NCBI GenBank assembly: GCA_028287235.1
Contig: JAQBQB010000004.1
Coordinates: 1-64,000, forward strand
Source of the DNA: Gemmatimonadota bacterium
Lineage (GTDB): Bacteria > Gemmatimonadota > Gemmatimonadetes > Gemmatimonadales > Gemmatimonadaceae
Direction of reading: 5' to 3'
DNA length: 64,000 nt
The notes beneath the pieces were generated by a model. It was not told the DNA's origin and searched no databases. It was given only the letters and a program-made list of their open reading frames with translations. The position numbers and the translations under genes were made by a program. Within the stretch, counting starts at the first letter, position 1; each line of letters begins with the position of its first letter. This document shows, piece after piece, positions 23,976-28,492 of the stretch.

Positions 23976-25220
<1,245 letters not shown>

Positions 25221-25224
25221 CGCC

Positions 25225-26406
25225 GTGCCGGTTCCCGTGCAGCTCGACCGTCATCTGATCAGCGATCCGTCGCTCTTTCCGCTGGCCGACAAGGTCGAGC
25301 GCGGCGAACGGCTGTCGATGCAGGACGGCGTCTCGCTGTTCACCAGCGGCGACATCCTGGGCATCGGCCACATGGCCGGCGCGGTGAACTCGGCGAAGCA
25401 TGGCGATCGCGTGACGTTCGCCGCGAATCACCACATCAATCCCACGAACATTTGCACCCTGCGGAAGACCTGCGTCTTCTGCTCGTACGCGCGGCTGCCC
25501 AAGGAAGCGGGCGCCTATCGCTACACGATGGAGCAGGTGTACGCCGAAGCGGCGACCGCCAACACGACGCTGACGCGTGAGTTCCACATCGTGGGCGGTC
25601 TCGACATGAAGGCCGGGTTGGCCTACTACACCGAGATGTTTCGCGGGCTGAAGGAGCGTTTTCCGCACGTCCACATCAAGGCGCTCACGGCGGTCGAGAT
25701 CGCGCACATCGCGCGCATCGACAAGCTGTCGCTCCGCGACACGCTCATTGCGCTCCGTGACGCGGGGCTCGACACGATGCCGGGCGGCGGCGCCGAAGTG
25801 TTCAGCCCCGGCGTCCGCGCCACCATCGCCGACAAGAAGCTTTCCGGCGAGGAGTACATCAACGTGCACCGCGAAGCGCACGCGCTGGGCATTCGCAGCA
25901 ACTGCACGATGCTCTACGGCCACGTCGAGACATACGAGGATCGCATGGCGCATCTCTCGATGCTGCGCGATCTCCAGGACGAGACGGGCGGCTACCTGGC
26001 CTACATCCCGCTCGCGTACCATCCCGACAACAACGAGCTCGGCGAGACCCTGCACCGCACGGGCACGGCGACCACCGGCGTGGACGACCTGAAGAACCTC
26101 GCCGTGGGCCGGCTCTTCCTCGACAACTTCGAGCACATCAAGTCGCACTGGATCATGGTCACGCCCTTCACGTCGCAGATCTCGCTCGCCTTCGGCGTGA
26201 ACGATCTCGAGGGCACCGTGGTGCGCGAGAAGATCTACCACGAGGCGGGCGCGCACACGTCGCAGTCGATGACCCTCGACGCGATCCTGCGGCTGATTCG
26301 CGGCGCGAAGAAGATTCCCGCCGAGCGCGATTCGTTCTATCGCGTCCTTCGAACATTCGACGAACACGACAAGCACGACGAACCATCCGTCGTCGCGGCG
26401 GCGTAG
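25225..26406 (+). CDS. mqnE: Aminofutalosine synthase (radical SAM, MqnE)
   Basis: 393 aa from GTG 25225. MqnE adds the adenosyl radical to the MqnA product to make aminofutalosine in the futalosine route to menaquinone. Supporting sequence: [33 protein letters not shown], and the MLYGHVE segment, all typical of the MqnE/MqnC/CofH group. The iron-sulfur motif reads [10 protein letters not shown], i.e. CX5CX2C, rather than the CX3CX2C usual for radical SAM enzymes and seen in the mqnC product at 27431. The reading frame is clean, so this is not an obvious sequencing indel. mqnA follows 2 bp later. Confidence 0.88.
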
Positions 26407-26408
26407 CC

Positions 26409-27269
26409 GTGCGCGTCGGCCGAATTCCGTACATCAACTGCTACCCGGTCTACGGGGCGATCGACCGCGGCATCGTCCCCATGCCCGCGGAGCTCGTCGA
26501 CGGTGTGCCCACGGCGCTCAACCGCGAGATGGCCGCCGGCACGCTCGACGTCAGCGTCATCTCCGCCGTCGAATACGCGCGCGACGCGAAGAAGTATTTG
26601 CTGCTGCCCGACCTCTCGATCTGCAGCGACGGCCCGGTGCGCAGCGTCGTGCTCTTCTCCAAGCGTCCCGCCTCTGAGCTGCAGGGACGCCGGGTGCTCG
26701 TGAGCCGCAGCTCGATGACGAGCGTCGCGCTGCTCGAGCTGTTGTTCGAGAACGTGTGGGACGCCAAGCCGGCGTTCGTGCCCAGCAACGCGGAGCTCGT
26801 CGACGTCGCGCGCTTCGGTGAAGAAGAGCACGACGCCCGCCTCGTGATCGGCGACGCGGCTCTGCACCTGTGGTCGCGCCTTCGGTCGCCGGAGCTGTAC
26901 CCGGACACCGGCGACCTGACGCAGTATCGCTACGCCTACGACCTCGGCGGCGAATGGAAGCGATGGACCGATTTGCCGTTCGTCTTCGCCGTCTGGGTCG
27001 CGCAGCGCACGGCACCCGTGGCAGAGGCGCTGGCCGTGCACGCCGGACTGATTGCTTCGCGAGACTGGGGGCTGCAGCACCTGGACACGCTTGCCGCGCA
27101 GGCCGCCATTGCCACGGGCGTGCACAGAAGCGTATGTCTCGAGTACCTGTCTGGGCTCGATTACGGGCTGTCGTACCAGCATCTGGCCGGATTGACGGAG
27201 TTTTTCCGGCGGTTGGTGGCGGCAGGGAAGGTGCCGAACGGATCGCTGGCATTTCTGCCGGCGGCCTAG
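26409..27269 (+). CDS. mqnA: Chorismate dehydratase MqnA
   Basis: 286 aa periplasmic-binding-protein-like enzyme that dehydrates chorismate to 3-[(1-carboxyvinyl)oxy]benzoate, the entry step of futalosine-type menaquinone synthesis. N-terminal VGRIPYINCYPVYGAI and SVISAVEYARDAKKY are typical; VLVSRSSMTSVALLELL and VIGDAALHL line the binding cleft in the family. It starts at GTG 26409 immediately after mqnE. Confidence 0.93.
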   Translation: MRVGRIPYINCYPVYGAIDRGIVPMPAELVDGVPTALNREMAAGTLDVSVISAVEYARDAKKYLLLPDLSICSDGPVRSVVLFSKRPASELQGRRVLVSRSSMTSVALLELLFENVWDAKPAFVPSNAELVDVARFGEEEHDARLVIGDAALHLWSRLRSPELYPDTGDLTQYRYAYDLGGEWKRWTDLPFVFAVWVAQRTAPVAEALAVHAGLIASRDWGLQHLDTLAAQAAIATGVHRSVCLEYLSGLDYGLSYQHLAGLTEFFRRLVAAGKVPNGSLAFLPAA

Positions 27270-27430: not shown

Positions 27431-28492
27431 ATGAGCCAAAAGGCCAACCCAATGAACGATATTCTCGATTTCTATACCAACGCCTCCCTCATCGAGCTGG
27501 GCGCCGAAGCCGACCGCGTGCGCAAGGAAAAGCACCCGGAGGGGATCGTCACGTACATCGTCGACCGCAACATCAACTACACGAACGTGTGCGTCGCCGA
27601 CTGCGGGTTCTGCGCGTTCTACCGGCGCCCCAAGCACGCCGAGGGATGGACGCTCTCGTACGAACAGATCGGCGCGAAGATCGACGAGGCGAAAGAGCTC
27701 GGCGCGGTTCAGATCCTCATGCAGGGCGGGCACAATCCGTACATCCCGTTCGAGTGGTATCTCGATCTGCTGCGGTACATCAAGACGTATCATCCCATTC
27801 ACATCCATGGGTTCTCGCCGAGCGAAGTGGACTTCTTCGCCAAGACGTTCCGCATGGACGCGCGCGACGTCATTCGCGAGCTGATGAAGGCCGGGCTCAA
27901 CTCGATCCCCGGCGGCGGCGGCGAGATTCTCGTGCAGCGCGTGCGCGATCTGGTGGCCAAGAAGAAGGCCGGCGCCGACCGCTGGCTCGAGATCATGGAG
28001 ATGGCGCACCAGGAGGGCATGAAGACCTCCGTCACCATGATGTACGGCATCGGCGAGACGCTGGCCGAGCGCATCGAGCATCTCGAGCGCGTGAAGGAAG
28101 TGCAGGCGCGGACGAACGGCTTCACGGCATTCATCTGCTGGCCGTTGCAGCCGGAGAACACGCCCACGATGTCGCACATGCAGAAGACCGACGCCGTGGA
28201 GTACCTGCGCACGGTCGCCATCGCGCGCATCGTGCTCGACAACGTGCCGAATCTCCAATCGAGCTGGGTCACGATGGGCATGAAGGTGGGGCAGACCGCG
28301 CTCCGCTTCGGCTGCAACGATTTCGGATCGCTCATGATCGAGGAGAACGTCGTGTCCGCGGCGAACACCACGCATCGCACCTCGACCGACGAGATGGAGC
28401 GCCTGATCCGCGACGCCGGCTTCGTCGCCGCGCGGCGCCGGCAGGACTATTCCATTCTGCAGATGGTCGAGCCGGCGGGCGCCGCCGCGTGA
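27431..28492 (+). CDS. mqnC: Cyclic dehypoxanthine futalosine synthase (MqnC)
   Basis: 353 aa radical SAM enzyme that cyclises dehypoxanthine futalosine. It has the expected motif NYTNVCVADCGFCAFYRRP (CX3CX2C), followed by QILMQGGHNP, HIHGFSPSEV and AGLNSIPGGGGEIL. The ATG at 27431 gives MSQKANPMND; an internal ATG at 27452 is an alternative. Neither mqnB nor mqnD is in the window, so the remaining steps must be encoded elsewhere. Its stop overlaps the most upstream ispF start. Confidence 0.94.
   Translation: MSQKANPMNDILDFYTNASLIELGAEADRVRKEKHPEGIVTYIVDRNINYTNVCVADCGFCAFYRRPKHAEGWTLSYEQIGAKIDEAKELGAVQILMQGGHNPYIPFEWYLDLLRYIKTYHPIHIHGFSPSEVDFFAKTFRMDARDVIRELMKAGLNSIPGGGGEILVQRVRDLVAKKKAGADRWLEIMEMAHQEGMKTSVTMMYGIGETLAERIEHLERVKEVQARTNGFTAFICWPLQPENTPTMSHMQKTDAVEYLRTVAIARIVLDNVPNLQSSWVTMGMKVGQTALRFGCNDFGSLMIEENVVSAANTTHRTSTDEMERLIRDAGFVAARRRQDYSILQMVEPAGAAA

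Follow-up and report, generated by a model that had tools for sequence, protein, structure and literature searches.

Aminofutalosine synthase with a two-residue insertion between the first and second cluster-binding cysteines in Gemmatimonadota

The aminofutalosine synthase (MqnE), an enzyme of vitamin K2 synthesis, that is encoded in the analysed stretch of DNA, 64,000 nucleotides of a Gemmatimonadota genome and called the window below, is ordinary apart from two residues inserted in its cluster loop, and this insertion is real and fixed in the lineage. The mqnE gene (25225..26406, forward strand) has a GTG start and encodes 393 amino acids, and its assignment is based on matches to TIGR03700, Pfam, PDB and Foldseek. 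Judging by the nucleotide sequence, the GAGGAG at 25212..25217 on the same strand is its probable ribosome-binding site. The cluster-binding motif C77-TLRKT-C83-VF-C86 occupies codons 77–86 (25453..25482, forward strand) within a wider motif stretch of 15 residues, and the codons of its cysteines lie at 25453–25455, 25471–25473 and 25480–25482. Five residues lead from the first cysteine to the second, and the protein does not fit the canonical radical SAM motif CX3CX2C. The translation of the open reading frame reproduced exactly the CX5CX2C motif that the initial annotation had placed at this site. The same annotation had left the choice between a lineage-specific variant and a two-residue insertion; it is both, as the alignment with CX3CX2C relatives placed two additional residues between the first and the second cysteine, and the Gemmatimonadota sequences that carry them form a clade with 100/100 support. 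The source genome comprises 5.7 Mb, and the records with the most similar MqnE bear the titles Gemmatimonadaceae or Gemmatimonadetes.

The comparison with NCBIfam models showed that the window protein is most similar to TIGR03700 (MqnE), with a score of 431.2 bits, which is 3.4 bits below the cut-off of 434.55. The next best score, 338.6 bits, belonged to the MqnC model, and the other MqnE model, NF006276, remained far below its threshold (295 of 560 bits). At locus L132, a relative of Gemmatimonadaceae type that shares the motif passes TIGR03700 with 435.5 bits. The small shortfall was not taken as exclusion from MqnE, and the identity of the protein rests on the phylogenetic tree, the conserved residues and the pathway context. 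The Pfam models CofH_C and Radical_SAM both exceeded their cut-offs. The closest solved chains were those of Pedobacter heparinus MqnE (PDB 6xi9/6xig, phmmer E 1.2e-84), the top Foldseek match of the predicted fold was 6xi9_B (TM 0.82/0.84, 37% identity), and one of the best-matching MqnE structure entries has aminofutalosine bound. In the tree, MqnE and MqnC rows were split with 100/100 support, and the window protein was placed on the MqnE side.

Conservation was compared on the 68-row tree set, which contains 39 CX3CX2C MqnE rows and two CX5CX2C clades of 19 (Gemmatimonadota) and 10 (Acidobacteriota) rows. Of 54 columns conserved in at least 95% of the CX3CX2C rows, 51 retain their residue in at least 90% of the rows of each CX5CX2C clade, and the other three dipped merely to 84–89%, in the Gemmatimonadota rows. 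The description of the flanking sequence as strongly MqnE-like is upheld both by these columns and by the nearest structure. The only cysteines common to every row of all three groups are C77, C83 and C86.

The genes that follow mqnE point to the same pathway. An mqnA-like gene of the VitK2_biosynth family (26409..27269, forward strand; PF02621, 225.4 bits) starts two bases past the mqnE stop, and no NCBIfam model matched its product at E 0.001. The gene mqnC (27431..28492, forward strand) encodes cyclic dehypoxanthinyl futalosine synthase (TIGR03699, 470 bits, cut-off 428.1), and the CVADCGFC found in it agrees with the CX3CX2C spacing that had been ascribed to MqnC. A search of the whole source genome showed that MqnE is single-copy and that the futalosine set includes MqnB above cut-off, MqnC and two PF02621 proteins, namely MqnA and an MqnD candidate. 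The mqnB gene adjoins the second PF02621 gene, the mqnD candidate, at G000:C15:62792-64104, on a different contig from the window with its mqnE-mqnA-mqnC block. MenD, the sole protein of the classical pathway that was searched for, gave a best match of 30.3 bits in this genome against a cut-off of 244.2.

Among 17 genomes of the phylum, MenD was found above cut-off in two (G017 and G042). The same two genomes are absent among the MqnE matches, and the other 15 are present. Quinone pathways seem to be split between lineages of Gemmatimonadota. The six cultured Gemmatimonadota are reported to make MK-8 or MK-9, and Gemmatimonadales to prefer the futalosine pathway (PMC9426454). The same source also describes the phylum as holding a full men-like gene set (PMC9426454), which counts against the reading preferred here, namely that of a working MqnE.

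The analysis of related loci showed that the longer loop is widespread within the phylum. A scan of genome contigs with the single window protein gave 66 loci, which by title belong to Gemmatimonadota groups except L078 (titled only 'bacterium'), L095 and the Acidobacteriota loci L096–L098. One MqnE with five residues between the first two cysteines was found in each of 94 loci (L001, L004–L095 and L099). In 30 further genomes of the phylum from outside family f1, motif frames could be read in 28, as L120 ends before the motif and L129 holds MqnC alone; 19 of these frames carry CX5CX2C (families f2, f3, f4, f7 and f9) and nine carry CX3CX2C (families f8, f10 and f11). The Gemmatimonadota families with the longer spacing are thus f1–f4, f7 and f9, and those with the canonical one f8, f10 and f11. 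Altogether, the 180 MqnE frames from loci L001–L186 comprise 114 with CX5CX2C, 65 with CX3CX2C and one without the motif. The 114 frames, all from Gemmatimonadota, represent 94 distinct sequences, and some loci duplicate one genome. When 395 genomes of the phylum were scanned with a DNA pattern of the motif, 220 matched; a minority of these matches may be due to chance, since a reversed control pattern matched in 25 genomes (counted from the table); no match fell in families f8, f10 or f11.

The residues of the loop are strongly conserved. Within the 94 distinct sequences, the second loop position is Leu in all 94, the third is Arg in 89 and Asn in five, and the fifth is Thr in 87 and Val in seven. 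Across 92 distinct DNA stretches, five codons are used for the invariant Leu, a figure that speaks to codon variety only, as the script preselected the residue pattern. On these sequence comparisons, the Gemmatimonadota CX5CX2C motif is old and kept, and selection may be the cause of its retention. One locus, L095/G397 (L132), comes from a 4.0-Mb genome titled Candidatus Kuenenia stuttgartiensis and holds Gemmatimonadaceae-type mqnE and mqnC genes, its MqnE being 73% identical to that of the window; the genome is probably mislabelled.

The same DNA pattern matched in 40 of 396 genomes of the phylum to which G395 belongs, Acidobacteriota according to the title of its locus L096, most of the matches not being MqnE-like by eye. 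Five looked MqnE-like (G597, G723, G715, G412 and G635), and their frames encode an MqnE with NPTN[VL]C[VI]YTY[ND]CKFC; these proteins share 49–50% identity with the window protein and are clearly nearer to MqnE than to MqnC. In one Acidobacteriota class (148 genomes), CX5CX2C was present in 30 of 30 homologues with 66% identity or more to L219, and CX3CX2C in 20 of 20 chosen lower-ranked homologues (48–56% identity). The CX5CX2C proteins of this class (L217–L221 and L225–L254) make up a second MqnE clade with the loop [VI]YTY[ND].

The canonical spacing was found in 51 of 51 other Acidobacteriota frames, a non-random set selected for their score or an unusual length; G412 stood in the same listing outside these 51 and later proved to carry CX5CX2C. 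All three Acidobacteriota loci L096–L098 have CX3CX2C, and so do the single MqnE frames of Streptomyces and Paenibacillus, which together with P. heparinus MqnE from the PDB made up the sample of other phyla. Scans of viral contigs yielded no relatives. The initial annotation had named a common occurrence of CX5CX2C in MqnE as a refutation; within the sample, the motif is uncommon in MqnE as a whole, though it is not restricted to Gemmatimonadota, being present also in one Acidobacteriota class.

Phylogenetic trees built without the motif columns were used to examine the relationship between the two groups. In both free trees, the Gemmatimonadota and the Acidobacteriota CX5CX2C clades were each supported at 100/100 and stood apart, the bootstrap of the second tree being unsettled. 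The AU test did not reject a single CX5CX2C clade, either in the first tree set (p-AU 0.553, the constrained single-clade tree being 3.4 log units better) or in the second (p-AU 0.375, the constrained tree being 5.3 log units worse). Two independent origins were consequently dropped as a firm claim. The loops differ in sequence, with LRKT in one clade and YTYN in the other, which may point to two gains or else to a single ancient gain followed by drift. A search for compensating residues gave no signal, as the five columns common to both CX5CX2C clades and rare elsewhere lie within the range of 0 to 9 found for nine control clade pairs.

It is very likely that the window protein is a working MqnE whose cluster loop gained two residues in the ancestor of the CX5CX2C-carrying Gemmatimonadota families, and that it retains a normal cluster and reaction. 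The insertion between the first and the second cysteine would date from that ancestor. C77, C83 and C86 would then coordinate three of the irons in a single [4Fe-4S] cluster and leave the fourth to bind SAM, and the extra residues would most likely bulge from the cluster loop. The reaction itself is presumably that of other MqnE proteins, in which an adenosyl radical and 3-[(1-carboxyvinyl)oxy]benzoate give aminofutalosine. We infer the role of the three cysteines as ligands from their being the sole cysteines in every row, and such an arrangement matches radical SAM enzymes in general, where three irons of the [4Fe-4S] cluster are each bound by a cysteine and the fourth by SAM (PMC4389238).

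Other cysteines were rejected as ligands, as none occurs in every row. Position 227 holds a Cys in 17 of 19 Gemmatimonadota CX5CX2C rows. All 10 Acidobacteriota CX5CX2C rows have Cys at positions 38 and 202, the latter being Cys also in 33 of 39 CX3CX2C rows; Cys at these positions thus does not follow the insertion within the clade of the window protein. In the AlphaFold model of the window protein, residues 85–95 fall below pLDDT 50, and in a CX3CX2C control (an Acidobacteriota MqnE) residues 77–79, just behind the cysteines, do so as well. Both models are weak at the loop, and the proposed geometry is thus neither supported nor opposed by them. The CX5CX2C enzyme is very probably active, since MqnE is single in the genome, futalosine-pathway proteins are present, MenD was not found and the literature ascribes MK-8 or MK-9 to cultured members of the phylum.

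The explanations that compete with a working enzyme and a neutral bulge differ in probability. That the longer loop tunes the enzyme, through the cluster potential, oxygen shielding or another electron donor, and is kept by selection, appears unlikely. Each clade does show strong conservation of its loop (xL[RN]x[TV] for Gemmatimonadota, [VI]YTY[ND] for Acidobacteriota), and the loop was lengthened by the same two residues in two phyla; however, plain structural fit can also explain conservation within a clade, the loop residues differ between the clades, and the number of columns shared by the CX5CX2C clades does not exceed that of the control pairs. The stronger proposal, that two lineages gained the longer loop independently and that it is adaptive (e.g., in setting the cluster potential or oxygen tolerance) and not a neutral bulge, is still less probable.

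A drift of the window protein to some other reaction of the MqnE/MqnC/CofH family, so that it would be an aminofutalosine synthase no more, could account for the TIGR03700 score slightly below cut-off, but we consider it highly improbable. The gene adjoins mqnA-like and mqnC genes, its product is the sole MqnE candidate in a genome with other futalosine-pathway proteins and no MenD found, the conserved MqnE columns are retained, and the top structural match is an MqnE. An HmdB-like enzyme was ruled out on the basis of TIGR03957, whose cut-off is 320.9 bits: the window protein scored 29.7 bits, and none of 59 relatives exceeded the cut-off. An assembly or sequencing error, the 6-bp artefact by which the motif might have been refuted, has practically no probability left and is likewise ruled out: the extra six bases are common to many separate assemblies and recur in 94 distinct sequences of many genomes and in the 19 frames of five further families.

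The known systems closest to the window MqnE, taken here as a working enzyme with an enlarged loop, share different features with it. The P. heparinus enzyme (6xi9, 6xig) has the same family and fold, but its CVYDCKFC is CX3CX2C, with two fewer residues between the first and the second cysteine. The Acidobacteriota CX5CX2C proteins (L225–L254; 47–51% identical to the window protein) have two extra residues in the same place, but with the loop [VI]YTY[ND] and in a separate 100/100 clade. HmdB/HcgA, which acts in the formation of the [Fe]-hydrogenase cofactor, shares the CX5CX2C spacing (PMC10100467) but belongs to another family and makes a pyridinol precursor. The occurrence of this motif in HmdB, mentioned in the initial annotation, is borne out in print (PMC10100467, PMC4389238), as a matter of shared spacing and not of kinship. 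For HcgA/HmdB with CX5CX2C, both a [4Fe-4S] cluster and the formation of 5'-deoxyadenosine have been reported (PMC10100467). QueE, with CX14CX2C, also has a lengthened loop between the first two cysteines of the canonical cluster-binding motif (PMC4389238), although it is a different enzyme and its loop is far longer.

The CX5CX2C motif has been called unique to HcgA/HmdB (PMC10100467). This statement is too narrow and needs widening, as two MqnE clades carry the motif; no report of CX5CX2C in MqnE was present among the literature matches listed, in a collection holding a minority of the subscription papers. Radical SAM enzymes are recognised by CX3CX2C as their hallmark; filters based on it would miss CX5CX2C MqnE, just as naming by TIGR03700 alone would fail for the window protein. 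The CX5CX2C MqnE represents a variant of an enzyme already known; in Gemmatimonadota it looks essential, and a second such clade exists in another phylum. MqnE thus offers a natural pair of loop lengths in one enzyme, in which the freedom of the cluster loop is simple to probe.
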